Shown: positions 31,396-45,869 of the stretch, in pieces
How the letters are laid out: every line of letters begins with the position of its first letter
Numbering within the stretch: the first letter of the stretch is position 1
DNA from: Lysobacter sp. cf310
Lineage (GTDB): Bacteria > Pseudomonadota > Gammaproteobacteria > Xanthomonadales > Xanthomonadaceae
Reading direction: 5' to 3'
DNA length: 64,000 nucleotides
Assembly: GCF_900114355.1 (NCBI RefSeq)
Contig: NZ_FOSS01000004.1
Span: 26,238 to 90,237 of the forward strand
Position numbers and translations under genes: made by a program
Notes under the pieces: model-generated
Seen by the model: only the letters and a program-made list of their open reading frames with translations
What the model was told of the DNA's origin: nothing
Databases searched by the model: none

Positions 31396-32607
31396 GTGTC
31401 GCTTGAGTCGTTGCCGCCCCCGCCCATGCCCGCGCTGGCGATCCGCGCGTACACCGCGACCACCGCCCTGGGCCGCGGTCGCGAGGCCCAGGCCCAGGCC
31501 CTGCGCGAACGCCGCGGCGGTCTGCGCCGCAACGACTTCGGGCCCGATCCGCTGGACTGCTGGATCGGCCGCGTCGACGGTCTGGAAACCCTGGCCCTGC
31601 CGGCCGAACTGGCCGACTGGGACTGCCGCAACAACCGCCTGGCCTGGCTGGCCCTGAACCAGGACGGCCTGCCCGAAGCCCTGGCCGCGCTGGTCGCGCG
31701 CCGCGGCGCCGAGCGCGTGGCGGTGGTGCTGGGCACCTCCACGGCCAGCATCGGCGCCACCGAGGACGCCTATACGCGCCTGGTCGACGGCCAGTTCCCC
31801 GCCGATCTGGCGCGCGCCGAAGTCCATCAGCCGCATTCGCTGGGCGGTTTCGTGCAGCGCGCCACCGGCCTGCGCGGCCCCTGCGTGACCGTGGCCACCG
31901 CCTGTTCGTCCAGCGCCAAGGTGTTCGCCCAGGCCGCGCGCCTGATCGCCACCGGTTACGCCGATGCGGCCCTGGTCGGCGGCGTCGACACCTTGTGCGG
32001 CAGCGTGCTGTTCGGCTTCAACTCGCTGCAGCTGGTCGCCAGCGAACCCTGCAAGCCCTTCGACGCCGCGCGCGTGGGCCTGTCGCTGGGCGAAGCGGGC
32101 GGCTACGCCCTGATCGAGCGCGTCGACGGCGACGACGCCGGCGCGCTGCAATTGCGCGGCTACGGCGAATCCAGCGACGCCCACCACATGTCCGCGCCGC
32201 ACCCGCAAGGCCTGGGCGCGCAGCTGGCGATGCGCGACGCGCTCGCGCGCGCCGGTATCGACGCGGGCCAGGTCGGCTATCTCAACCTGCATGGCACCGC
32301 CACGCCGGCCAACGACCAGGCCGAGGCGATCGCGGTGGCCGCGCTGTTCCCCGCCAGCCTGCACGCCAGCTCGACCAAGGGCTGGACCGGCCACACCCTG
32401 GGCGCGGCCGGGATCGTCGAATCGGCGATCGCGCTGCTGGCGCTGGAGCGCGGCGAATTGCCCGGCATCCTCAACAGCGTCGTGCCCGATCCGGCGTGCG
32501 GCCCGCAGATCCGTTTCGACAATGCGCACAGCCCGATCCGTTACGCGATGAACAACTCCTTCGGTTTCGGCGGCAACAACTGCTCGCTGGTGTTCGGCCG
32601 CGCATGA
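31396..32607 (+). CDS. Beta-ketoacyl-ACP synthase of the aryl-polyene cluster
   Basis: A 403-residue FabF-type ketosynthase that would extend the aryl-polyene chain with malonyl-ACP. The catalytic residues are Cys170 (TACSSS), His299 (HGTATPAND) and His333 (GHTLGAAG). The GTG at 31396 has GGAG seven bases upstream; an ATG at 31426 would give 393 residues. Followed at a four-base overlap by a shorter ketosynthase relative, as in other aryl-polyene loci, so the two may form a heterodimer. First gene of the KS-KS'-GT2-antiporter unit. Confidence 0.93.
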   Translation: MSLESLPPPPMPALAIRAYTATTALGRGREAQAQALRERRGGLRRNDFGPDPLDCWIGRVDGLETLALPAELADWDCRNNRLAWLALNQDGLPEALAALVARRGAERVAVVLGTSTASIGATEDAYTRLVDGQFPADLARAEVHQPHSLGGFVQRATGLRGPCVTVATACSSSAKVFAQAARLIATGYADAALVGGVDTLCGSVLFGFNSLQLVASEPCKPFDAARVGLSLGEAGGYALIERVDGDDAGALQLRGYGESSDAHHMSAPHPQGLGAQLAMRDALARAGIDAGQVGYLNLHGTATPANDQAEAIAVAALFPASLHASSTKGWTGHTLGAAGIVESAIALLALERGELPGILNSVVPDPACGPQIRFDNAHSPIRYAMNNSFGFGGNNCSLVFGRA

Positions 32608-33383
32608 CCGCCCTCGCCTACATCGAAGGCCTCGCCTATTGGAGCCGCGGCCTGCCCTCGTGGAGCGCGGCGCGCGACTACGCCGGCGGCGCCGAGGCGC
32701 TGGCCGACGCGCCCGCGCGGCCGTCGCCGCAGCTGCTGCCGGCCAACGAGCGCCGACGCGCGCCGGAAACCGTGGCGGTGGCGCTGGACGTCGCGCTCGC
32801 CGCCTGTCAGGCCGCGGGGCGCGACCCGGCCACGCTGGCCTCGGTGTTCGCCTCCGCGCACGGCGACCTGGCGATCACCGACTACATGTGCGCGACCCTG
32901 GCCGCGGATCCGCGCGCGATCTCGCCCACCCGCTTCCACAACTCGGTGCACAACGCCGCGGCCGGCTACTGGACCATCGGCGCCGGCTGCATGCGCGCCG
33001 CCACCGCGATCAGCGCCGAGCGGGCCAGCTTCGCCCAGGGCCTGATCGAGGCGATGGCGCAGTTGGGCGACGATGCCGAGGCGGTGCTGCTGGTGGGCTA
33101 CGACGGCGAAGCCAGCGGCGCGCTGGCCACGGTCGCGCCCAGCGTCGGCCTGCTCGGCGGTGCGCTGGTGCTGTCGCGCACGCCGCGCGCGGGCGCGGTG
33201 CGCATGCGTGCGCAGCTGCGCGACGGCGCGGCCGATGCCGGCGGCGCGCTCACGCGACGTTCGCAGGGCAATGCGATGGCGGCGATGCTGCCGCTGTTCG
33301 ACGCGCTGGCAGACGCGAGCGCGCGCGTGCGCCTGGCCGCGGGCGCCGGCCGCGTGCTGGAACTGGAGCTCGCCCATGACTGA
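32604..33383 (+). CDS. Ketosynthase-like partner (chain-length-factor type)
   Basis: A 259-residue protein of the short beta-ketoacyl synthase N-like type (ketoacyl-synt_2), overlapping the preceding ketosynthase by ATGA. It retains parts of the thiolase fold (SVFASAHGDLAITDYM, SPTRFHNSVHNAAAGYW) but no clear catalytic cysteine, so it is probably a structural partner of the preceding enzyme. Homologues are standard in aryl-polyene and xanthomonadin clusters. Confidence 0.88.
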   Translation: MTALAYIEGLAYWSRGLPSWSAARDYAGGAEALADAPARPSPQLLPANERRRAPETVAVALDVALAACQAAGRDPATLASVFASAHGDLAITDYMCATLAADPRAISPTRFHNSVHNAAAGYWTIGAGCMRAATAISAERASFAQGLIEAMAQLGDDAEAVLLVGYDGEASGALATVAPSVGLLGGALVLSRTPRAGAVRMRAQLRDGAADAGGALTRRSQGNAMAAMLPLFDALADASARVRLAAGAGRVLELELAHD

Positions 33384-34203
33384 GTCCGGGCGCCCGGAAC
33401 GCGACAGCATCGCGGTGGTGATCCCCGCGCTCAACGAATCCCTGCGCATCCGCGAGACCGTGCTCGGCGCGCTCGCGCATTGCCCGAACGTGATCGTGGT
33501 CGACGACGGCTCCGACGACGGCACCGCCGAATGCATCGCCGATCTGCCGGTGACCCTGCTGCGCCACCCGCAGCGCATGGGCAAGGGCGCGAGCCTGCGC
33601 GACGGTTTCCGCGAGGCGCTGCGGCGCGGCTATGCCGGCGTACTGACCATGGACGGCGACGGCCAGCACGACCCCGCCGATCTGCCGCGCCTGCTGGCCA
33701 GCGCGCAACGCCATCCGGGCTGCATCGTGATCGGCGCGCGTTTGCGCAAGCGCGCCTCGGCGCCGGTGTATCGGCGCCTGGCCAACGAATTCGGCGACTG
33801 GGGCATAGGCTGGGGCTGCGGCTACCGCATCGCCGACAGCCAGAGCGGCCAGCGCTATTACCCGGCGGCGGTGTGCGCGCTGGACCAGGTGCCCGGCGAG
33901 GACTTCGTGTTCGAGGCGCAGATCCTGATCTCGGCCGCGCGCCGGCTCGGCACCGGCGTGGTCTCGGTTCCGATCGAATCGCGCTATCAGCAGGCCGACA
34001 CCGAGGTGCGCTTCCGCAAGAGCCACTTCCGCCCGCTGCGCGATCTGTACCGCATCACCTCGCACGTGGTCGCCCAGGTCTGGGGCTACGGCGACGTGAT
34101 CGAGGAATACTGGCGCACCCGCGCGGCCGTGCCGGTGATCGACGACCCCAGCGGCGAATTCGCCGCCCGCCGCGAACGCGACCTGCCCGCCGAGCCGCGC
34201 TGA
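33376..34203 (+). CDS. GT2-family glycosyltransferase
   Basis: A 275-residue glycosyltransferase with the GT-A nucleotide-sugar signature: IPALNESLRIRE, VVDDGSDDGTAE and the DxD-type MDGDGQHDPADL. No membrane anchor is apparent. It overlaps the ketosynthase partner by eight bases. In enterobacterial aryl-polyene clusters a GT2 domain is fused to the acyltransferase (ApeJ-type); here it is separate. It probably glycosylates the pigment carrier lipid. Confidence 0.9.
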   Translation: MTESGRPERDSIAVVIPALNESLRIRETVLGALAHCPNVIVVDDGSDDGTAECIADLPVTLLRHPQRMGKGASLRDGFREALRRGYAGVLTMDGDGQHDPADLPRLLASAQRHPGCIVIGARLRKRASAPVYRRLANEFGDWGIGWGCGYRIADSQSGQRYYPAAVCALDQVPGEDFVFEAQILISAARRLGTGVVSVPIESRYQQADTEVRFRKSHFRPLRDLYRITSHVVAQVWGYGDVIEEYWRTRAAVPVIDDPSGEFAARRERDLPAEPR

Positions 34204-34238: not shown

Positions 34239-35489
34239 ATGACCCATACCCTGCTGCTGCAACTGCTGGTGATCCTGGTGGTGGCGCGCGCTTGCGGCGC
34301 GGTGCTGAAGCGCTTCGGCCAACCCGCGGTGGTCGGCGAGATGGCGGCCGGTTTCGTGCTCGGGCCGGTGGTGTTCGGCGCGGTGCTGCCCGAGGCGCAT
34401 GCGGCCTTGTTCGCGCCGGCCTCGCTGCCGGCATTGGGCTCGTTGTCGACCTTGGGGCTGGTGTTGTTCATGTTCATCGTCGGCGCCGAACTGCGCGCGC
34501 CCGACGGCGTGCGCGCGCAGTTGCGCGAGGCCGGCGCGGTCGGTCTGTTCGGCGTGCTGCTGCCGGTGATCCTGGGCATCGCGGTGTCGCCCTGGCTGCA
34601 TCCGCTGGCGCCGGCCGGCGTCGGCTTCTGGCCGTTCGCGCTGTTCATGGCCGCGGCGATGTCGATCACCGCTTTCCCGGTGATGGCGCGCATCCTCAAG
34701 GACCGCGGCCTCAGCCAGACCCGTCTGGGCCGGCTCGCGCTGGGCTCGGCCGCGATCGCCGACGTGTTCGCCTGGATCGTGCTGGCGCTGGTGGTGGCCC
34801 TGGTCGGCAGCGGCGAAGGCGTCTGGGGTTTCGCCAAGATCTGCATCGGCCTGCTGGCGCTGCTGGCCCTGGCCTTCGGCGTGCTCAAGCCCGCCTACGC
34901 GGCCCTGCTGCGCCGCTATGCGCCCGACGGCCATCCCTCGGTGGCGATGCTGGCCGCGCTGGTGATCGGCCTGCTCGCTTGCGCCGCGCTGACCGAATGG
35001 CTGGGCCTGCACGCGGTGTTCGGCGCCTTCGTGTTCGGCGCCTGCCTGCCGCGCGACGACCGTCTGCTGCGCACCCTGACCGAGCGCCTGGAATACGCGG
35101 CGGTGGTGATCCTGATGCCGATCTTCTTCGCCCTGGCCGGCCTCAACACCCGCGCCGAGGCCTTCGTCGGCGCCGGCCTGGGCGCCTTGGCGCTGATCCT
35201 GGTGGTGGCGGTGGCCGGCAAGATCGCCGGCGGCGCGCTGGGCGCGCGCATCGCCGGCTACGGCTGGCGCGACAGTCTGGCCACCGGCGCGCTGATGAAC
35301 GCGCGCGGGCTGATGGAACTGATCGTGATGAAGGTCGGCCTGGACGCGGGCCTGATCGGACCGGAACTGTTCACCATGCTGCTGGCGATGGCGATCGCGA
35401 CCACGGTGATGACCTCACCGCTGTTGAGCCTGTTCGCCGGTCGTGCGGCTAGCGCGGACGCGCCGCGCGCGCAGGGCACGCGGCGCTAG
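34239..35489 (+). CDS. CPA2-family cation/proton antiporter
   Basis: A 416-residue membrane protein with about 12 helices of the Na+/H+ exchanger (CPA2/KefB-like) fold: QPAVVGEMAAGFVLGPVVFG, LGLVLFMFIVGAEL, and ITAFPVMARILKDRGLSQTRLGRLALGSAAIADVFAWI broken here only for description of two adjacent helices. It lies 35 bases after the GT2 gene in the same unit. No regulatory C-terminal TrkA domain is present. Its place in a pigment operon may reflect a need for ion homeostasis or be incidental. Confidence 0.9.
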   Translation: MTHTLLLQLLVILVVARACGAVLKRFGQPAVVGEMAAGFVLGPVVFGAVLPEAHAALFAPASLPALGSLSTLGLVLFMFIVGAELRAPDGVRAQLREAGAVGLFGVLLPVILGIAVSPWLHPLAPAGVGFWPFALFMAAAMSITAFPVMARILKDRGLSQTRLGRLALGSAAIADVFAWIVLALVVALVGSGEGVWGFAKICIGLLALLALAFGVLKPAYAALLRRYAPDGHPSVAMLAALVIGLLACAALTEWLGLHAVFGAFVFGACLPRDDRLLRTLTERLEYAAVVILMPIFFALAGLNTRAEAFVGAGLGALALILVVAVAGKIAGGALGARIAGYGWRDSLATGALMNARGLMELIVMKVGLDAGLIGPELFTMLLAMAIATTVMTSPLLSLFAGRAASADAPRAQGTRR

Positions 35490-36104: not shown

Positions 36105-36845
36105 CTAGCCCATGCCGCCGTTGATCCCGATCACTTGGCCGTTGATGTAGCCGGCCGCATCCGAGCACAGGAAACCGACCAGGGCCGCGACCTCGTCCGG
36201 ACGGCCGGCGCGGCCGGCCGGCACCAGCTGGCGCAAGGTCTCGGGCGGAAACGCGTCGGCGGCCATGCGGCCTTCGATCACGCCCGGCGCGACCACGTTG
36301 ACGGTGATCCCGCGCGAGGCCATTTCGCGCGCCAGCGACATCGAGGCGCCGTGCAGGCCGGCCTTGGCCGCGGCGTAATTGGTCTGGCCGCGATTGCCCA
36401 GCACCGCCGCCACCGACGACACGCTCACGATGCGGCCCCAGCGCGTGCGCGCCATCGGCAGCAGCAGCGGCTGGGTCACGTGGAAGAAGCCGTGCAGCGA
36501 AATGTCGATCACGCGCTTCCACTGCGCATCGCTCATGCCGGCCATCGGCGCATCGTCGTGCACACCGGCGTTGTTGACCACGACCTGGATCGGGCCGTCG
36601 GCCAACAGCCCTTCGATCGCCGCGCGCGCGGCCTCGCCATCGGCGACATCGAAGACCACCGCCTGGGCGCTGCCGCCGGCCTCGCGGATCGCCGCGACCG
36701 TGGCCGCGGCGCGTTCGGAATTGGCGTTGGCGTGCACGATCACGTGCAGGCCGTCGGCGCCCAGGCGCGCGCAGATCGCCGCGCCGAGATCGCCGCTGCC
36801 GCCGGTGACCAGGGCGCGGCGGGCAGTGGAGGACGGCTGGCTCAT
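36105..36845 (-). CDS. 3-oxoacyl-ACP reductase (FabG-like) of the aryl-polyene cluster
   Basis: A 246-residue short-chain dehydrogenase that reduces the 3-oxo group after each chain extension. It has the nucleotide motif TGGSGDLG, VNNAGVH, catalytic Ser in SVSSVAAVLG, Tyr/Lys in YAAAKAG and the C-terminal NGQVIGINGG. It corresponds to ApeQ in aryl-polyene clusters. Start at 36845 (MSQPSSTARRALVTGG). Last pigment gene of the minus unit, 128 bases after the preceding gene. Confidence 0.92.
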   Translation of the reverse strand: MSQPSSTARRALVTGGSGDLGAAICARLGADGLHVIVHANANSERAAATVAAIREAGGSAQAVVFDVADGEAARAAIEGLLADGPIQVVVNNAGVHDDAPMAGMSDAQWKRVIDISLHGFFHVTQPLLLPMARTRWGRIVSVSSVAAVLGNRGQTNYAAAKAGLHGASMSLAREMASRGITVNVVAPGVIEGRMAADAFPPETLRQLVPAGRAGRPDEVAALVGFLCSDAAGYINGQVIGINGGMG

Positions 36846-37535: not shown

Positions 37536-37967
37536 TCAGTCCGGGCGCAGCATCACCGCGGCGCGGCCGGACGCTAGCAGGACGCCCTGGTGATGCAGGG
37601 CGAACTCGTACTGCCAGCTGTCGCCGGCGTCGACCAGCTTGCGTGCCTGCGCCTCGATCGCGCCGGCCAGATCGTCGATGCGCGCCACGCGCAGTTCGAC
37701 GCCGCGCAAGGCGACCAGCAAGCCCGGACGCGCGATCTCGCCGGCCGCGCGCGCGAGCAGTCCGCCGTGCACCGCCATCGCCTGCGCGCCGTACTCGCAC
37801 AGGTGCAGCGCGCGCAGGCGGTCGTGGCTGCGCAACGGATGGGTGGGATCGCGATGCCCGTGGCTGCGCAGACGAATGGCGTCGGCGTCCCAGTCCAACA
37901 CCTCCTCCCACAGGCACATCGTGCCCTGGTGCGGAATCAGCGCGGCGATCTGCTCACGGCTGCGCAT
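37536..37967 (-). CDS. Hotdog-fold 3-hydroxyacyl-ACP dehydratase-like protein (ApeP-type)
   Basis: A 143-residue hotdog protein. It starts MRSREQIAALIPHQGTMCL, where His13 matches the catalytic histidine of the FabA/FabZ fold, and Glu58 in LCEYGAQAM is the acidic partner. It would dehydrate the 3-hydroxyacyl intermediate to give the polyene double bonds. Matches the ApeP member of aryl-polyene clusters by position next to MMPL exporter and reductase. It overlaps the exporter gene by 14 bases. Confidence 0.87.
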   Translation of the reverse strand: MRSREQIAALIPHQGTMCLWEEVLDWDADAIRLRSHGHRDPTHPLRSHDRLRALHLCEYGAQAMAVHGGLLARAAGEIARPGLLVALRGVELRVARIDDLAGAIEAQARKLVDAGDSWQYEFALHHQGVLLASGRAAVMLRPD

Positions 37968-40299
37968 CGGCGCGCTCCCGCATCGTCGCCGGCTCGCGCA
38001 CGATCAACAGCGCGAGCACGAAGTTGAACGCCACGCCCAGCGCCACCGTGGCGCCGATCGCGCGCAGCACCGGGATCGACGAGGACGCCAGCAGCGCGAA
38101 CACCAGCAAGGTGGTCAGGCTGCAGACGATCACTGCGTGCAGGGTGCGCAGCTGTTCGGCGTAGTCGTCGCCGGCGTGGTCGAAGAACAGCGCGTAATCC
38201 AGGCCCAGGCCGGCGGCCAGGATCAGCGCGACCAAATGGAACAGATTGAGCTCGATGCCCAGCCCGCGCAGCACCGCCAGGATCAGCAGGGTGGTCAACG
38301 CCATCGGCGCCAGCACCCGCAGCACCCGCCGCGGCGAGCGCAGCGCGACCCACACCGTCAGCGCCAGCAGCACCGCCGCCAGGCCCAGGGCCAGCAGCAC
38401 GCGCCCGCGGTAGGCGGCGACCAGCGATTCGGAGGCCTGCTTGAGGTCCAGCAGCTGGGCGCCGTGCGCGGCGGCCACGCGCGCGACCGCGGCCGGATCG
38501 TTCAAGCCGTTCAACGAGACCAGCGCGGTGGCGTGGCCGGGACGCTGCAGCAAGAGGCCGGCGACGCTGGCCGCGAGCGGCGTGCCGTCCAGATCGGCGG
38601 CGATCAGCGGCGGTGCACTGCGCGCGGCGGCGACGTCGGCGGCGAAACCGGCGAAGGCGTCGGCACGGAACGGGCTATCGGCGACCGCGGCGGCCAGCGC
38701 CGTGTCCAGGGTCGCCGCGCCCGGCAGTTTGATCTGGCGCGCGCGCTGGGTGGCCGCGCTGGGCAGATAGCGCGCGGCGAGGTCGTAGCCGGCGATCGCG
38801 CCCTGCGCGCGCAAGGTTTGCAGCGCCGGCAGCAGGCGTTCGGACGCGCGCAGCGCGGCTTCGGCGTCGCCGGCCTCCAGCGCGATCACATAACGCACGT
38901 CGGGCGCGCCCAGCTCGCCGCGCAACTGCGCGTCGCGCGCGAGCGCGTCGGCCGGCACCGGGGTGAGCTTGGCCAGATCGTTCTGCCAGAACGCGCCCGG
39001 CGCCAGCCAGGCCACGCCCAGCGCGAGCGCGGCCAGCGCCAGCATCGCCGGTGCGCGCAGCCGCGGCAGCCGCGCCAGCGCCGCCCAGGCGCGCGCCAGC
39101 CAGGCCGAATCGGCGGCGTCGCGCGGCGAGGGATCGATCAGCGCCGGCAGCAGGAAGCGCGTGGTCAGCGCGGCCGTGCCCAGACCGACGATGGTGAACA
39201 CCGCCAGCTGCTTGAGCCCGTCCACGCCCGAGACCAGGAAGGTCAGATAGGCGATGCAGGTCGAGGCCACGCCGGTGCCCAGGGTCGGCCACAGCGCGCG
39301 CGCGCTGGCCCAGGGCGACAGGCCCGGCCGCTGATGGCTGAACAGATGGATCGGATAATCCTGAGCCACGCCGATCAAGGTGAAACCGAAGGCGACGGTG
39401 ATGCCGTGCACGCCATCGAACATCAGCGCGACCGCGCCCAGACCGGCCAGACCGGCGCTGGCCAGCGGCAGGCCGCCCAGCAGCGGCGCCTTCCAGCTGC
39501 GATAGGCCAGCCACAGCAGCAGCACGAACACCAGGCTGTCGATGGTGCCGATCAGGCTGGCCTCGCGCGCAGTGCGGCCGCCGATCTCGACCGAGAACGC
39601 GCCCGGCCCGCTCAGCGTGAGCTGCGCCTGGGATGCGCCGCGCGCCTGCGCGAAGGCGGCGCGGATCGCGTCCACCGCGGCCTGCTGGCCGGTGGGATCG
39701 AAGCCGGCCGCGCGCGTTTCCAGCGCCAGCAACGCCTCGCGGCCGGCGCGGTCGAACCAGACCCCGTGCAGGCGCTGCGGCGCGTTCGCCGGCTGCCAGG
39801 CCTCGGCCAGCTTCAGGGTTTCCAGGGTGGGATCGTTGGGCAGCAGCGGCTCCAGCATCGCCGAGGCCGGCGAGCCCAGGTCCTGCACGCGCGCCTGCAG
39901 CTCCTCGCCCAGATAGGCGGCGTCGAAGGCCTGCGTGTCCAAGGTCGGCGACAGCAGATAGCGATACGGGCGCAGGCGTTCGGGAATCGCGTCCAGGCCG
40001 AGGTCGGCGCCGTTGGCGACCAGCTTGAACTCCGGCTTGGCCGCGAGCGCGGCGCGCATCGCCTGCGACTGCGCGGCCAGCGCTTGCGGCGTGTCGCCGG
40101 CCAGCGCCACCAGCAGCAGCCGCGAACCCGGGCCTTCGCCGAGCTCGTCGATCAGCAGCTTCTGCGCGGGCGTGCGCGCGCTGGGCATGAAACGGCGCAG
40201 ATCGCCGCTAAGTTCCAGATGGCGGCTGATCGCCCAGCCCGCGAGCGCGAGCGCGGCCAGCCACAACAGCGCGAGGCCGAGACGGCGCGCTGGCGTCAT
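37954..40299 (-). CDS. MMPL-family exporter
   Basis: A 781-residue RND-superfamily (MMPL) transporter with two repeats of about six helices each separated by large periplasmic loops. Helix-rich segments occur at about residues 5-22, 245-400 and 620-765, and YPIHLFSHQRP and GLDYALFFDHAGDDY mark the two pore-helix regions. In aryl-polyene clusters this protein (ApeM-type) is thought to move the lipid-linked pigment from the inner membrane. Start at 40299 overlaps the stop of the LolA-like gene by four bases. Confidence 0.92.
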   Translation of the reverse strand: MTPARRLGLALLWLAALALAGWAISRHLELSGDLRRFMPSARTPAQKLLIDELGEGPGSRLLLVALAGDTPQALAAQSQAMRAALAAKPEFKLVANGADLGLDAIPERLRPYRYLLSPTLDTQAFDAAYLGEELQARVQDLGSPASAMLEPLLPNDPTLETLKLAEAWQPANAPQRLHGVWFDRAGREALLALETRAAGFDPTGQQAAVDAIRAAFAQARGASQAQLTLSGPGAFSVEIGGRTAREASLIGTIDSLVFVLLLWLAYRSWKAPLLGGLPLASAGLAGLGAVALMFDGVHGITVAFGFTLIGVAQDYPIHLFSHQRPGLSPWASARALWPTLGTGVASTCIAYLTFLVSGVDGLKQLAVFTIVGLGTAALTTRFLLPALIDPSPRDAADSAWLARAWAALARLPRLRAPAMLALAALALGVAWLAPGAFWQNDLAKLTPVPADALARDAQLRGELGAPDVRYVIALEAGDAEAALRASERLLPALQTLRAQGAIAGYDLAARYLPSAATQRARQIKLPGAATLDTALAAAVADSPFRADAFAGFAADVAAARSAPPLIAADLDGTPLAASVAGLLLQRPGHATALVSLNGLNDPAAVARVAAAHGAQLLDLKQASESLVAAYRGRVLLALGLAAVLLALTVWVALRSPRRVLRVLAPMALTTLLILAVLRGLGIELNLFHLVALILAAGLGLDYALFFDHAGDDYAEQLRTLHAVIVCSLTTLLVFALLASSSIPVLRAIGATVALGVAFNFVLALLIVREPATMRERADAQP

Positions 40300-41027
40300 C
40301 GCTGCGCGGCGCCGTGGCCGCGGCACAGCGCCGCGAGCTGGCTGGCGTCGGTGATGCTGGTCGCTTCGCGCGCGGCGCCGGCCAGCAAGGTGCGTTGCAG
40401 TTCGATGCCGCCGCTGGCGTCCGAACGCGCCGGGCGCGCCTCGATGCAACGCAGCTCGGCGCCGCGCCCGCGCAGGGTGATGCCCTGCAGCTTGGCCGCG
40501 ACCGCGCTGCTGCGCGGCGTGAGGGTCATGGTCCACTGCTGGCGCGTGCCTTCGGCGGCGACCAGGTACTGCTGCTCCAGGCGCTTGCGGTCGCCGGCCA
40601 GCAGGGCGCCGAAGCTGGCCTGCAGACCGGCCAGTTCCGGCGCGCGCGACAGCGAGAAGCTGCGCGCGGCCTTGCCGGCGCGCTGGATCTTCACTTCGCC
40701 GGCGCGGATGGTGGTGGTCTCGGCATAGGGCGCGCGCACCTCGCGCACCAGGGTGTCGTCTTCCAGGCGCTGGTACTCGCCGCTCAGGCGCAGCGGCGCC
40801 TTGAGCAGGGCCGAGCCGCGGATCTCGACGAAGGCGGTGCGCATCGACGCCGGCTGGGCCAGACGCGCCAGGATCCAGTCCGGGTCCACCGTGGCGCCGG
40901 GCGCGCTGGCCGCGGCCGGCTCAGGCGGAGCGGCGTACAGCGAGCCGGCGGCGCAGGCCAGCGCCAGCGCCCAGCCCCAGCGGCGCGGCCGGATCGTCCG
41001 GGGCGATGCCGTCGTGCGCAAGGCCAT
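40296..41027 (-). CDS. LolA-like outer-membrane lipid carrier
   Basis: A 243-residue exported protein with a signal peptide (about residues 15-34, WGWALALACAAGSLYA) and a LolA-like beta half-barrel: TAFVEIRGSALLKAPLRLSG, REVRAPYAETTTIRAG, QWTMTLTPRSSAVAAKLQGI. LolA-type proteins in aryl-polyene clusters are presumed to carry the lipidated pigment across the periplasm. It follows the acyltransferase gene with an overlap of 107 bases if both are taken at the starts given here; a later ATG is not apparent before the signal peptide. Confidence 0.85.
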   Translation of the reverse strand: MALRTTASPRTIRPRRWGWALALACAAGSLYAAPPEPAAASAPGATVDPDWILARLAQPASMRTAFVEIRGSALLKAPLRLSGEYQRLEDDTLVREVRAPYAETTTIRAGEVKIQRAGKAARSFSLSRAPELAGLQASFGALLAGDRKRLEQQYLVAAEGTRQQWTMTLTPRSSAVAAKLQGITLRGRGAELRCIEARPARSDASGGIELQRTLLAGAAREATSITDASQLAALCRGHGAAQR

Positions 41028-41967
41028 CGTGAGCGGTGCTGTCTTGCGCTGTGCTGTCTTGAACCGCGTCATCGGCATGCCAGAAGTCGTAGAAGTTGAA
41101 CCAGTTGTAGGGGGCGTCGCAGGCGTGGTGCTGCAGCCGCGCGGCATAGCGTTCGACCATCGTCGCCAGCACGCGCGCCCGATCCTGGCGCGCAATCGCC
41201 GATCCGTCGCTGAACGGCTCGAACACCAGATCGTAGCGGGCGCCGCCGCGGTACAGGCCGAAGGCCAGCAGCACCGGCGCCTTCAAGGTCGCGGCGACCA
41301 GCCAGGGCGCGAGCGGAAACGGCGCCGGCGCGCCCAGGAACGGCGTGCGCAGCCAGGGTTCGCCGGGACGCGCGCGATCGACCAGCAAGGCCACCAGCGC
41401 GCCCTCGTCCAGGGCCTGCTTCACCGCCAGCACGATCGCCGGGCCGTCCTGGCCGGCGTCGATCACGCCGGCGGCGATGCGCGGATCCAGCGAATCCAGC
41501 AACTGGGTCATGGCCGGGTTGTGCGACTTGTCGAACACCACCCGCACCTGCACCTCGGGCGCGCTGCGCGCGAGCACGCGCAGAGCCTCGAAGCTGCCCA
41601 GGTGGGAGCCGAAGATCAGCGCGCCGCCGCGCGCGTGCTGGGCGCGCAGCTCGTCCAGCCCGCTGACCCGCACGTCGAAGTAATGCATCTGCCCGCCGAG
41701 CATGAACAAGCGGTCGAGGATGGTCGCGGCGAAGGTGTGGATGTGGCGGGCGACGTCCCACAGGCCCGGCGCGCGATCCAGCGCGCGCGCCAGGTAGGCG
41801 CGCGAGGCGCGCCGTTCCGGGCCGCGCACCAGCACGAAGTAGGCGGTGATCGGGTACAGGCACAGCCGCGCCAGGCCGCGTCCGCCGTGGCGGGCGATCG
41901 CGCGCAGCACGCGCAGCGCGAACGGACTGCCGCCCTCGGGGCGCTGTTTCCAGTGCTCGCCGCTCAT
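40921..41967 (-). CDS. LpxL-like acyltransferase of the aryl-polyene cluster
   Basis: A 348-residue LPLAT-fold acyltransferase. The LpxL/HtrB-type signatures are LIFGSHLGSFEALRVLA (His of the HxxxxD-like motif) and ALLVDRARPGEPWLRTPFLG. It should transfer the polyene acyl chain onto a lipid carrier. The C terminus is extended by an Asp/Ala-rich repeat (DSTAQDSTAHDGLAHDGIA) and an Arg/Ala tail that runs over the start of the LolA-like gene by 107 bases. Four-base overlap with the preceding short hotdog gene. Confidence 0.88.
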   Translation of the reverse strand: MSGEHWKQRPEGGSPFALRVLRAIARHGGRGLARLCLYPITAYFVLVRGPERRASRAYLARALDRAPGLWDVARHIHTFAATILDRLFMLGGQMHYFDVRVSGLDELRAQHARGGALIFGSHLGSFEALRVLARSAPEVQVRVVFDKSHNPAMTQLLDSLDPRIAAGVIDAGQDGPAIVLAVKQALDEGALVALLVDRARPGEPWLRTPFLGAPAPFPLAPWLVAATLKAPVLLAFGLYRGGARYDLVFEPFSDGSAIARQDRARVLATMVERYAARLQHHACDAPYNWFNFYDFWHADDAVQDSTAQDSTAHDGLAHDGIAPDDPAAPLGLGAGAGLRRRLAVRRSA

Positions 41968-42251
41968 GCCGGCGCGTCCGCGACCACTTCGCCGCTGGCC
42001 AACAGGGTGTCGCCGCGCAGCACCCGGAAGCGCCAGCGCGGCGCGGCGCCGTCCAGCTCGATGCGCGCGGTCTGCTCGGGCAGCAGCGGCTGGGCGAACT
42101 TCACCTGCGGCAGGCGCAGCCCGTTCAGCGGACCGTACCCGGCCTCGATCGCGTCCAGCACCCGGTCCAGCACGACCACGCCCGGCACGACCGGTCGTCC
42201 GGGGAAATGCCCGGGCAGACTGGGATGATCGGCGGCGATGCGGAATTCCAT
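41964..42251 (-). CDS. Short FabZ/ApeI-type hotdog dehydratase
   Basis: A 95-residue FabA/FabZ-like protein containing the whole active-site block LPGHFPGRPVVPGVVVLDRV, with His15. It is short (FabZ is about 150 residues) but matches the compact ApeI-type dehydratases, which pair with a second hotdog protein such as the one at 37536-37967. ATGA overlap with the acyltransferase. In enterobacterial clusters a ligase gene lies just upstream of this one; here there are only 81 bases to the preceding gene. Confidence 0.87.
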   Translation of the reverse strand: MEFRIAADHPSLPGHFPGRPVVPGVVVLDRVLDAIEAGYGPLNGLRLPQVKFAQPLLPEQTARIELDGAAPRWRFRVLRGDTLLASGEVVADAPA

Positions 42252-42332
42252 GCGGGCGGGGTTCGACGGTGTTTCGGCCTGGGTGGGCGACAGGATAAGC
42301 CACCGGCCCGTGACGCCATGCCGATCCTGGCG

Positions 42333-43022
42333 TCAGTCGAACAGACTGCGCCAGAACGAAGGGCCCAACCCGCCCATGCGACGCAGGAAATCCCAGAAGT
42401 TGCGGTAGGGCCGGTCCTGGAACACGCGCTTGCGGAACTGGTACTCGCCGATGAAAAAACCGCCGACGATGCCGTAGTTGAGCAGGTTGGCGAACAGCGA
42501 CCACTGGTCCTGGCTGATCGCGATCGGCGGGGTCTGGCCCAGCCGCGCGAGCACGCCGCCGGGCACCGCGATCATCGCCAGGGCGGCGTTGGCCAGCGCC
42601 AGGCCGCCCAGCAGCCAGGCCCAGATCGCGGTGAGCTGGCGCGAGTAGCGGTAGACGTCGGCCGGCAGCTGGCTGGGCGTGCAGGTGTCCAGGGCGGCGA
42701 CGATGCGGGTGATCAGGCCCTCGCGCGGCGCGCGCAGGCTGCGCGCGAACCACCACGACAGGGCGCCGGTGAACAGCACCGGCGGGGTCAGCAGCAACAG
42801 CTGCGGATAGATCGTGTGGGCGATCGCGGCCAGTCCGGCCAGGATCGCCGCGAACAGCAGCCAGGCGCCCAGGCGCAGGTGCAGCAGGGCCTCGATCTGC
42901 ACGATCAGGGCCAGGTCAATCAGGGCGATCGCCGCCGGCCAGCCGCCGCCGTCGTGGCTGGCCCAGTGCGCCAGCAGGGGGTAGGCGATCGCCAGCAGCA
43001 GCCGCAGCACGGCGCCGGTCAT
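42333..43022 (-). CDS. COG4648-like membrane protein (ApeG-type)
   Basis: A 229-residue membrane protein with about five helices (residues 5-25, 30-50, 55-75, 80-98 and 145-165) and a conserved C terminus containing EYQFRKRVFQDRPYRNFWDF. This is the pattern of the uncharacterised COG4648 membrane protein found next to the acyl carrier protein in aryl-polyene clusters. Start at 43022. Function unknown; it follows the ACP gene by 46 bases. Confidence 0.87.
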   Translation of the reverse strand: MTGAVLRLLLAIAYPLLAHWASHDGGGWPAAIALIDLALIVQIEALLHLRLGAWLLFAAILAGLAAIAHTIYPQLLLLTPPVLFTGALSWWFARSLRAPREGLITRIVAALDTCTPSQLPADVYRYSRQLTAIWAWLLGGLALANAALAMIAVPGGVLARLGQTPPIAISQDQWSLFANLLNYGIVGGFFIGEYQFRKRVFQDRPYRNFWDFLRRMGGLGPSFWRSLFD

Positions 43023-43068: not shown

Positions 43069-43338
43069 TCAGGCGGCCCGGCTTTGTTCGATGTGGGCCG
43101 ACAGCGCGCGCAGCGAGCCGAAGATGCGGCGGTTTTCCTCGCTGTCCGAGCGCAGCTGGAAGCCGTACTGCTTGGACACCGCCAGGGCCAGCTCCAGGGC
43201 GTCGATCGAGTCCAGGCCCAGCCCATCCCCGAACAACGCCGCCTCGGGGTCGATCTGGGCCGGATCGACGTCCTCCAGGTTCAGGCTTTCGACCAGGAGT
43301 TGCGCGAGTTCGCGTTCGGCGGGGTTCTGTTCGGACAT
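43069..43338 (-). CDS. Acyl carrier protein of the aryl-polyene cluster
   Basis: An 89-residue acyl carrier protein with the phosphopantetheine attachment serine in GLGLDSIDALEL (Ser44). It has acidic helix-2 character typical of ACPs and would hold the growing polyene. Only one ACP gene is visible, whereas enterobacterial aryl-polyene clusters carry two. First gene of the long minus unit; its promoter region (43339-43461) is shared with the divergent halogenase-like gene. Confidence 0.93.
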   Translation of the reverse strand: MSEQNPAERELAQLLVESLNLEDVDPAQIDPEAALFGDGLGLDSIDALELALAVSKQYGFQLRSDSEENRRIFGSLRALSAHIEQSRAA

Positions 43339-43461: not shown

Positions 43462-44853
43462 ATGAGCTCAACCATCCCCGCGCCCGGCCCCGCCGACGCC
43501 CCGCCGGACGCAAACCTGAACAGCCCCGCCTCCGCCCCGGAACTCAGCCCCGACGTCCTGGTCATCGGCGGCGGCCCCGCCGGCACCACCGCCGCGACCC
43601 TGCTCGCGCGCAAGGGTTGGAAGGTGCTGCTGCTGGAGAAGGACGCGCATCCGCGCTTCCACATCGGCGAATCGCTGCTGCCGATGAACCTGCCCATCCT
43701 CGAGCGCCTGGGGGTGCTCGAGCAGGTCAAGGCCATCGGCACCCACAAACCGGGCGCCGAGTTCCCGATCGACGAACGCAACTACAACACCTTCCGCTTC
43801 GAGCGCGCGCTGAATCCCAAGTTCGGCTACGCCTATCAGGTCAAGCGCGAGGAATTCGACCAGCTGCTGTTCCGCAACGCCCAGGCCAACGGCGTGGACG
43901 CGCGCGAGCGGGTCAAGGTCGAGAAGGTCGAGTTCGGCGCCGACGGCCGGCCGTCGCGGGTGCATGCGCGCGACGCCGACGGCGCCGCGCTGATCGTGCG
44001 CCCGCGCTACGTGGTCGACGGCAGCGGCCGCGACGCCTTCTTCGGCAGCCAGCTCAAGCTCAAGCAGAAGAACCCGCTGCACCAGTCGGCGGCGATCTTC
44101 AGCCACTTCACCGGCGTCGAGCGCCGCGACGGCGAGGACGCCGGCAACATCACCGTGCAGCGCTTCTCGCACGGCTGGATGTGGCTGATCCCGCTGCAGA
44201 AGGACGTGATGAGCGTCGGCGCGGTGTGCTTCCCCGAATACCTCAAGCAGCGCCGCGGCGAGACCGAGGCCTTCCTGATGAAGACTCTGGAGTCCGAGCC
44301 GCAGGTGTGGGCGCGTATGCAGGGCGCCCAGCGCGTCGGCGCGGTCCACGTCACCGGCAACTACTCCTACACCTGCACCCGGATGACCGGGCCGGGCTGG
44401 GTCATGGTCGGCGACGCCTACGCCTTCGTCGATCCGGTGTTCTCCTCCGGCGTCTACCTGGGCATGAACAGCGGCGAGCAGGCGGCCGACGTGGTGGACG
44501 GCGCGCTGCGCGATCCCGCGCGCGAGGCCGAGCTGCAGCGCGCGATGGTCAAGCGCCTCAAGCGCGGCCTCAAGCACTTCCAGTGGTTCATCTACCGCTT
44601 CACCACGCCGGTGATGCGCGCGCTGTTCAGCGCGCCGCGCAATTACTGGCAGGTCGAGCAGGCGGTGATCTCGATGTTGGCCGGCGACGTGTTCGACAAC
44701 CCGGCGGTGCTGCGCCGCCTGCGCATGTTCCGCTTCATCTACGCGATGACGGCGATCCGCATGGCGCCGCAGGCGCTGCGCGGCTGGTTGCGGCGCAAGC
44801 GCCAGGTCGGCGTGGATTTCCGCGGCGACACGCTGCAGCAGGGCAACCCGTGA
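43462..44853 (+). CDS. FAD-dependent halogenase-like oxidoreductase
   Basis: A 463-residue flavoprotein with a Rossmann FAD motif (VIGGGPAGTTAATLLARKG, residues 34-52), then FHIGESLLPMNLPILERLG, and the flavin-dependent halogenase signature W-x-W-x-I-P in GWMWLIP (Trp239, Trp241, Ile243, Pro244). A second conserved FAD region is GDAYAFVDPVFSSGV. Xanthomonadins are brominated aryl polyenes, so a role in pigment halogenation is a natural proposal but is not proven. It overlaps the chorismatase gene by four bases (GTGA). A non-halogenating monooxygenase role remains possible. Confidence 0.85.
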   Translation: MSSTIPAPGPADAPPDANLNSPASAPELSPDVLVIGGGPAGTTAATLLARKGWKVLLLEKDAHPRFHIGESLLPMNLPILERLGVLEQVKAIGTHKPGAEFPIDERNYNTFRFERALNPKFGYAYQVKREEFDQLLFRNAQANGVDARERVKVEKVEFGADGRPSRVHARDADGAALIVRPRYVVDGSGRDAFFGSQLKLKQKNPLHQSAAIFSHFTGVERRDGEDAGNITVQRFSHGWMWLIPLQKDVMSVGAVCFPEYLKQRRGETEAFLMKTLESEPQVWARMQGAQRVGAVHVTGNYSYTCTRMTGPGWVMVGDAYAFVDPVFSSGVYLGMNSGEQAADVVDGALRDPAREAELQRAMVKRLKRGLKHFQWFIYRFTTPVMRALFSAPRNYWQVEQAVISMLAGDVFDNPAVLRRLRMFRFIYAMTAIRMAPQALRGWLRRKRQVGVDFRGDTLQQGNP

Positions 44854-45869
44854 GCGCGGCCGCGACCGTGGTGGCCGCGACGCCGCGCTACAGCGTCGAC
44901 TACACCGACGCCACGCCCGTGCAGGCCCTGGCCGGCGACGACGTGCTGGCGGTGTTCGGCTTCGGCGCGAACGCCCCGCATCACGACGACCCGCGCTATC
45001 TGCGCGTGGCCCTGGAGCCCTACGGCGAGGCCAAGCTGGAAGTCTGGCGCGGCTCGGCGCCGGTGGCCTGCGGCCGCGACGGCGACCTGGCCTGGTCGGA
45101 GGACGGCGCGCTGCAGTTCGGCGCGCTGGAACTGGACGAACCGCCGGGCCTGCACGTCAACGACGGCATCGCCGCGGTCGCCGAGACCATCTACGCGCGC
45201 ATGATCGAGTTCACCCGCGCGCGCGGCTATCCGCATCTGCTGCGGATCTGGAACTACCTGGACGGCATCACCGTCGGCCAGGGCGACGCCGAGCGCTACC
45301 GCGTGTTCTGCGTCGGCCGCGCCGCCGGCCTGGGCGATTTCGAACCGGGCCAGCTGCCGGCCGCGACCGCGATCGGCAAGGTCAGCGAGGCCGGCGAAAC
45401 CCGCCGCCTGCTGGTGTACTGGCTGGCCTCGCGCACGCCCGGCACGCCGCTGGAGAACCCGCGCCAGATCAGCGCCTACCGTTACCCGCGCCAGTACGGC
45501 CCGCAACCGCCCAGCTTCGCGCGCGCGATGCTGCCGCCGCTGGGCAGCGCGATGCCGCTGCTGCTGTCGGGCACCGCGGCCATCGTCGGCCACGAGTCGC
45601 GCCACATTGATTCGGTCGACACCCAGCTCGACGAAACCCTGGCCAACTTCGACAGCCTGATCGCCGCCGCGCGCGCGCAACGGCCGTCGCTGCCGGCGCG
45701 CTTCGGCGCCGGCGCGCGTCTGAAGGTCTACGTGCGCGACCGCGAGGAAGTGCCGGCGGTGATGGCGGCGATGGACGCGCGCCTGCCCGGCATCCAGCGC
45801 ATCGTGCTGCAGGCGGCGGTATGCCGGCGCGAACTGCGCGTGGAAATCGACGGCGTCCACGACCTCTAA
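44850..45869 (+). CDS. xanB2: XanB2-like chorismatase / hydroxybenzoate synthase
   Basis: A 339-residue chorismatase (Hyg5/FkbO/XanB2 family) that splits chorismate into pyruvate and 3- or 4-hydroxybenzoate; XanB2 of Xanthomonas supplies the aryl head of xanthomonadin and the ubiquinone ring precursor. The signature LLLSGTAAIVGHESRH and the C-terminal ILQ-type block VLQAAVCRRELRVEIDG (Cys325) are characteristic; a cysteine at this position is associated with 3-hydroxybenzoate formers. It starts with GTG overlapping the halogenase-like stop, so the two are co-translated. Confidence 0.9.
   Translation: MSAAATVVAATPRYSVDYTDATPVQALAGDDVLAVFGFGANAPHHDDPRYLRVALEPYGEAKLEVWRGSAPVACGRDGDLAWSEDGALQFGALELDEPPGLHVNDGIAAVAETIYARMIEFTRARGYPHLLRIWNYLDGITVGQGDAERYRVFCVGRAAGLGDFEPGQLPAATAIGKVSEAGETRRLLVYWLASRTPGTPLENPRQISAYRYPRQYGPQPPSFARAMLPPLGSAMPLLLSGTAAIVGHESRHIDSVDTQLDETLANFDSLIAAARAQRPSLPARFGAGARLKVYVRDREEVPAVMAAMDARLPGIQRIVLQAAVCRRELRVEIDGVHDL

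Follow-up and report, generated by a model that had tools for sequence, protein, structure and literature searches.

Xanthomonadin-type aryl-polyene cluster of Lysobacter sp. cf310: the starter-loading ligase is very probably encoded on the same contig, outside the cluster

In E. coli and other Enterobacteria, the aryl-polyene genes follow the order ApeG (COG4648), ApeH (acyl-ACP synthetase) and ApeI, as given in Table 1 of PMC8253772, and that source assigns to ApeH the transfer of an aryl acid to the acyl carrier protein (ACP). In Azoarcus sp. BH72 the order is arcS (dehydratase), arcT (ligase), arcU (hypothetical protein) and arcV (ACP); according to PMC3949708, ArcT adenylates 3-hydroxybenzoic acid in vitro, is termed a homologue of the Xanthomonas protein Xcc4015 and also took benzoic acids modified at position 4. 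Xcc4015 (pigA site) is the Xanthomonas 3-hydroxybenzoate:ACP ligase, and knock-out of this AMP-ligase gives white cells, as stated in PMC6391268. That it adjoins xanB2 (Xcc4014) can be read from the locus numbers given in PMC3949708 and from the Xanthomonas loci that we compared. The name XanA2, which the original prediction on this DNA used for the Xanthomonas ligase, was not found together with xanthomonadin in the open-access papers searched. As for the carrier protein, the xanthomonadin ACP of X. campestris is activated by an Sfp-type phosphopantetheinyl transferase (PPTase) whose gene lies outside the cluster (PMC9813960, citing Chen 2022). In Lysobacter, PMC3691225 deals with the yellow pigment cluster of L. 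enzymogenes OH11 (ORF1-ORF17) and describes no AMP ligase in it; ORF10, after initial matches to acyl-CoA synthetases, was reclassified as LolA-like, and cells mutated in it kept their yellow colour. Deletion of the chorismatase gene left about 10% of the pigment (same source), so that some starter comes from elsewhere.

The window analysed here, i.e. the whole 64-kb stretch of Lysobacter sp. cf310 DNA (C7:26238-90237), carries a cluster with the same kind of gene content as that of L. enzymogenes OH11. Its features are, in window coordinates:

31426-32607, + strand: ketosynthase (KS) of the aryl-polyene type II PKS (PF00109/PF02801), corresponding to ORF17 of L. enzymogenes as described in the paper
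32604-33383, + strand: chain-length-factor-like (CLF-like) partner (PF13723, family search), counterpart of ORF16 and our co-occurrence marker
33376-34203, + strand: glycosyltransferase family 2 (PF00535)
34251-35489, + strand: Na/H exchanger-like protein (PF00999)
36105-36845, - strand: ketoreductase (KR), FabG-like (PF00106/PF13561)
37536-37967, - strand: putative second dehydratase (ApeP-like), so called from its position alone; no Pfam or NCBIfam family at 0.001
37954-40299, - strand: MMPL/RND-type exporter (PF03176)
40296-40982, - strand: LolA-like carrier (PF19574)
40921-41967, - strand: acyltransferase of the lipid-A acyltransferase type (PF03279)
41964-42251, - strand: ApeI-like dehydratase (PF07977)
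42252-42332, no strand: intergenic gap of 81 bp between the preceding and the following ORF; a ligase gene occupies the equivalent place in E. coli and Azoarcus
42333-43022, - strand: ApeG/COG4648-like membrane protein, labelled as in the original prediction; no Pfam or NCBIfam family
43069-43338, - strand: ACP, presumed 3-hydroxybenzoate acceptor (PF00550; NF006617 above cut-off)
43462-44853, + strand: FAD-dependent halogenase-like protein (PF04820 above cut-off; NCBIfam halogenase model far below cut-off)
44850-45869, + strand: XanB2-like (FkbO/Hyg5-like) chorismatase, presumed 3-hydroxybenzoate source (PF21168 above cut-off; TIGR04444 201.8 bits, under its cut-off of 325)

One locus unites KS and CLF-like protein, ACP, KR, dehydratase, chorismatase, exporter and LolA-like protein, which is the gene content of a xanthomonadin-type cluster. 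The identity of the ACP, already proposed in the original prediction, is confirmed by its two family matches. The halogenase-like gene is located between the ACP and chorismatase genes; the L. enzymogenes cluster, in contrast, is without a halogenase according to PMC3691225. The pigment of cf310 may be halogenated, as it is in Xanthomonas.

According to the original prediction, the cluster has no aryl-activating ligase where one would be expected, and much of what this claim relied on is borne out. The enterobacterial order that served as its premise is correct (PMC8253772, Table 1); by their ORF ends, the COG4648-like and ApeI-like genes are indeed 81 bp apart, and the claimed lack of any adenylate-forming enzyme between 30.5 and 46 kb holds for all 64 kb: of the 14 PF00501 matches in the 4.73-Mb genome, none falls in the window. 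An adenylation domain overlooked inside the cluster, which the same prediction had considered, is thereby ruled out. The expectation itself fared less well: true as the absence is of the window, a ligase between these two genes is the order of Enterobacteria and Azoarcus, and the xanthomonadin-type clusters of our comparison are arranged otherwise. Among the best 80 of 529 loci, the named loci with the cluster next to the ligase have the ligase adjoining the chorismatase, not COG4648/ApeI. An ApeH-type cluster from the family (genome G117) shows the other order, with the ligase 37 bp from a weak COG4648 match, followed by an ApeI match. The short gap is nothing special for the lineage, because the Xanthomonas ligase adjoins the chorismatase instead and because a relative, G045, has a gap of about 71 bp (by match edges) with no ligase within. 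In the Xanthomonas loci showing both genes (21/21), the COG4648-like and ApeI-like genes stand 810-820 bp apart; two of the proteins encoded in between were tested, and both are PF01553 acyltransferases (genes at L087:16089-16865 and L076:15057-15833). The best matches to this Xanthomonas protein in the cf310 genome have 29-38% identity. The equivalent place in cf310 is thus simply empty, and the PF01553 acyltransferase step of pigment making may differ between cf310 and Xanthomonas.

The original prediction had proposed a search of the rest of the genome for a XanA2/ApeH homologue, and this search was successful. The ligase and its divergent neighbour are found on the same contig:

C7:98982-100343 (L015:8982-10343), - strand: stand-alone adenylate-forming protein of 453 amino acids
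C7:100529-101137 (L015:10529-11137), + strand: PPTase (PF01648), divergent from the ligase

The ligase gene lies 8.7 kb beyond the end of the window, 26.9 kb (26 881 bp) from the chorismatase gene and 29.7 kb from the COG4648-like gene. Its product scores 70.2 bits with PF00501 (cut-off 29.9), and in 30/30 orthologues the following are invariant: TSGSTG (145-150), G286, T288, E289, D334, R349 and K438, which we take to be the catalytic motifs of the adenylate-forming superfamily. With 97% identity, the ligase of Lysobacter sp. Root916 is the closest one from a named genome, and the cf310 genome itself is most like Lysobacter. When modelled (mean pLDDT 86.8, pTM 0.75), this Root916 protein superimposes almost from end to end on MenE (TM-score 0.75), benzoate-CoA ligase, EntE and other superfamily members; among the 50 matches listed, identity to superfamily structures is 15-23%. 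Within the ligase family, identity is 51-100% (66-71% to the Xanthomonas loci), and the next relatives among the matches listed reach at most 37%, except for a 55-residue fragment in G030 (49%). The tree gives one family, to which the Xanthomonas ligase belongs, with few arrangement changes, though it was built by a quick method and has several long branches that meet. Judged from sequence, the protein is the orthologue of the Xanthomonas xanB2-adjacent ligase; X. campestris is absent from the 80 loci kept, so that the link to Xcc4015 is made through the position beside xanB2 in other Xanthomonas. Of the ApeH-type relatives, which are of the same superfamily, the three that were translated form a separate branch and are longer (559-575 amino acids versus 453).

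Could another AMP-binding protein of cf310 do the loading? The other 13 PF00501 matches are FadD, acetyl-CoA synthetase, PrpE, OleC and nine adenylation domains in NRPS or NRPS/PKS proteins, eight labelled by NCBIfam and five, all multidomain, by Pfam alone. None of the 13 bears an aryl-ligase label, and HbdA, the 3-hydroxybenzoate-CoA ligase model (cut-off 1000 bits), was among the best 25 families of the eight proteins scanned only for acetyl-CoA synthetase (187.6 bits) and propionyl-CoA synthetase (150.4 bits). As loaders, FadD, Acs, PrpE, OleC and the NRPS domains were considered and provisionally set aside since each is labelled otherwise, the nine multidomain ones on their label.

We then have, very probably, an aryl-polyene cluster of the xanthomonadin type, with its starter-loading ligase kept on the same contig but outside the cluster (C7:98982-100343). 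This is directly supported by the existence of the ligase, its place, its conserved residues, its fold (through the 97% identical orthologue), its orthology, and the fact that it is present or lost along with the PKS, to which we turn below. Characterised homologues suggest what the substrate is, which ACP accepts it and in what order the steps occur; by this analogy the chorismatase (44850-45869) would make 3-hydroxybenzoate, a PPTase would convert the cluster ACP (43069-43338) to its holo form, and the remote 453-amino-acid ligase would adenylate 3-hydroxybenzoate and transfer it to this ACP, after which the KS/CLF pair, the KR and the dehydratases would extend the loaded starter. Since ArcT in vitro accepts benzoic acids modified at position 4, some other acid, e.g. 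4-hydroxybenzoate, could be what the ligase naturally uses. As in Xanthomonas, the genome that encodes the ligase also encodes KS/CLF, ACP and chorismatase as its partners; the place is unlike, the ligase gene being far from the chorismatase gene and divergent from the PPTase gene. The Azoarcus pathway likewise has a XanB2-type chorismatase, and its ligase resembles ours by the authors' description of Xcc4015 homology; unlike here, arcT is inside the cluster, between the dehydratase gene and the hypothetical-protein gene next to the ACP gene. Neither adjacency to xanB2, usual but not defining in Xanthomonas, nor the place between COG4648 and ApeI genes typical of ApeH is found in cf310.

The distribution of the ligase was studied in 149 genomes of the family, presence being defined as at least 51% identity. 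It is present in 99 of them and almost always goes together with the CLF-like protein: 96 genomes have both, 49 neither, and only four are discordant, i.e. an agreement of 145/149; with the COG4648-like protein it is 147/149. The discordant genomes are fragmented assemblies: in three, fragments were not counted as present (of the CLF-like protein at contig ends in G007 and G141, of the ligase in G030), and the remaining one, G014, consists of 710 contigs and has a completeness of 82%. In the five genera with both states, ligase and CLF-like protein go together in every genome, though for one of these genera (g22) the two genomes without both genes are just 75-76% complete. An ApeH-type ligase (30-37% identity) is found in a further 22 genomes, in 22/22 at 2.1-2.6 kb from a weak CLF match; these carry another cluster type with its own ligase.

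Where the PKS block has been lost, the ligase has gone too, from a separate locus. G052, G057 and G078 are without the PKS block and without the ligase between XthA and PPTase, and keep chorismatase (66-71% identity) and PPTase. In them the PKS genes are gone between the chorismatase gene and the homologue of the window's 25173-27059 gene, with a glycosyltransferase or Na/H exchanger gene also left; on the far side, G052 and G078 have homologues of the window's 49642-52256 genes, and the G057 stretch stops at the chorismatase gene. At the ligase locus of these three genomes and of G005, the order reads XthA, 551-935 bp, PPTase, RsmG, ParA, ParB: the ligase is absent and its neighbours stay. 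Chorismatase also provides a ubiquinone precursor and PPTase serves other carrier proteins; the ligase, unlike them, is apparently without wider uses. This paired loss is the strongest evidence tying the ligase to the pigment. G005, G057 and G078 have an ApeH-type ligase instead, and G052 has no ligase match whatsoever. In G078 and G057 (L153, L154, L156; G078:C8, G057:C2), an ApeH-type cluster with its own ligase is seen on the chorismatase contig, 13-20 kb away; such a cluster may have taken over from the lost xanthomonadin-type PKS.

The original prediction left the choice between a ligase encoded elsewhere and a different route of loading. The former is strongly supported by the orthologue on the same contig, and we found nothing to support the latter. 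A route without a dedicated aryl:ACP ligase, in which aryl-CoA made by some other CoA ligase is taken directly by the ketosynthase or an acyltransferase, would suit a cluster that contains no ligase and has an acyltransferase-type protein; it is extremely improbable given that no aryl-CoA ligase label is found among the remaining AMP-binding proteins (eight scanned with NCBIfam, five with Pfam alone) and that an orthologous dedicated ligase agrees with the CLF-like protein in nearly all genomes. Such a route is moreover unnecessary, because this ligase exists and follows the PKS. One may also suppose that the ligase is a bystander, belonging to the PPTase-rsmG-parAB neighbourhood with another role, and that its link with the pigment is one of shared ancestry only. 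Its distance of 27 kb, its single-gene position between XthA and PPTase, and a neighbourhood that changes little all speak in favour of this. We nevertheless hold it to be highly improbable: the ligase vanishes with the PKS in 5/5 mixed genera, including genomes that keep the neighbours on both sides, and in Xanthomonas it adjoins the chorismatase gene and its knock-out is white.

The location of the ligase outside the cluster is lineage-wide. In 70 of the 99 ligase-bearing genomes it is divergent from a PPTase gene, in 21 it lies near the chorismatase gene, in five only near the CLF-like gene and in three near none of these ("beside" meaning <1 kb, <3.2 kb and <4 kb, respectively, between match edges, not start codons; PPTase matches <45% identity were excluded, and one ligase place was kept per genome, G024 having two). 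The class is uniform among the sampled genomes of each genus, and the PPTase class comprises 25 of the 38 ligase-bearing genera sampled. In this class the spacing between match edges is 56-344 bp (median 128); in cf310 it is 185 bp between the listed start codons. The chorismatase gene is within 60 kb in 46 of the 70. Among the named loci (best 80 of 529), 49 have the ligase beside the PPTase and 30 have it at most 2.9 kb from the chorismatase, while L114 (Xanthomonas populi) alone has neither nearby; 44 of the 49 also show RsmG, ParA and ParB, and three (L071, L077, L091) have the chorismatase 4.8-9.2 kb away too. The pairing of ligase and PPTase may be mere synteny in a slowly changing neighbourhood. 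A PPTase dedicated to the pigment is not supported: of the 50 genomes that have no ligase, 20 contain PPTase relatives of at least 45% identity. The corresponding chorismatase figure, 17/50, is a lower bound, as matches were kept down to that in G100 and those in G094 and G120 and weaker ones were dropped. In the whole cf310 genome there are two PF01648 proteins, C7:100529-101137 and C6:933147-933443. The only pointer to the in-cluster place as the older state would be the gene order of the ApeH-type clusters and of Azoarcus.

We found no description of the split arrangement in the open-access papers searched. L. enzymogenes ATCC 29487 (L056) has the orthologous ligase beside the PPTase gene, and no cluster gene within 10 kb of it, save for a glycosyltransferase match of 29%. 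The split pathway seen in this strain would explain why the published OH11 cluster is without a ligase.

Common control of ligase and cluster is unsupported. The divergent region L015:10344-10528 contains, on the PPTase side, a box AGCGTAAGCTAAA that is conserved in 8/8 aligned Lysobacter sequences; it has no match in the window at ≤2 mismatches, and a sigma-70 scan of the divergent region found no consensus promoter. A co-regulated ligase just outside the window, as the original prediction had envisaged, is thus half found: the gene is there, but no shared motif. A conserved ATG is present upstream of the listed PPTase start, which suggests that the PPTase protein may begin a few codons earlier than listed. 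At this point we may only speculate that ligase and PPTase form a two-gene priming unit, whose shared divergent control region would govern, separately from the PKS operons, the conversion of the pigment ACP to its holo form as well as its loading with the aryl starter. We regard this as unlikely; if true, the start of pigment making could be switched without touching elongation, and throughout the lineage a type II PKS would be divided between one locus for priming and another for elongation.

The observation at the 81-bp gap is real, its cause is ordinary, and the arrangement is mildly new: a known ligase is kept outside the cluster. What looked like a gap in the pigment pathway of Lysobacter and its relatives is thereby closed. 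In Xanthomonadaceae the ligase is often to be sought outside the cluster, in 70 of 99 cases beside a PPTase gene, and genome mining based on clusters would count such clusters as incomplete. That ligase and PKS are lost together, although they lie at different loci, serves as a natural test of the link between them.
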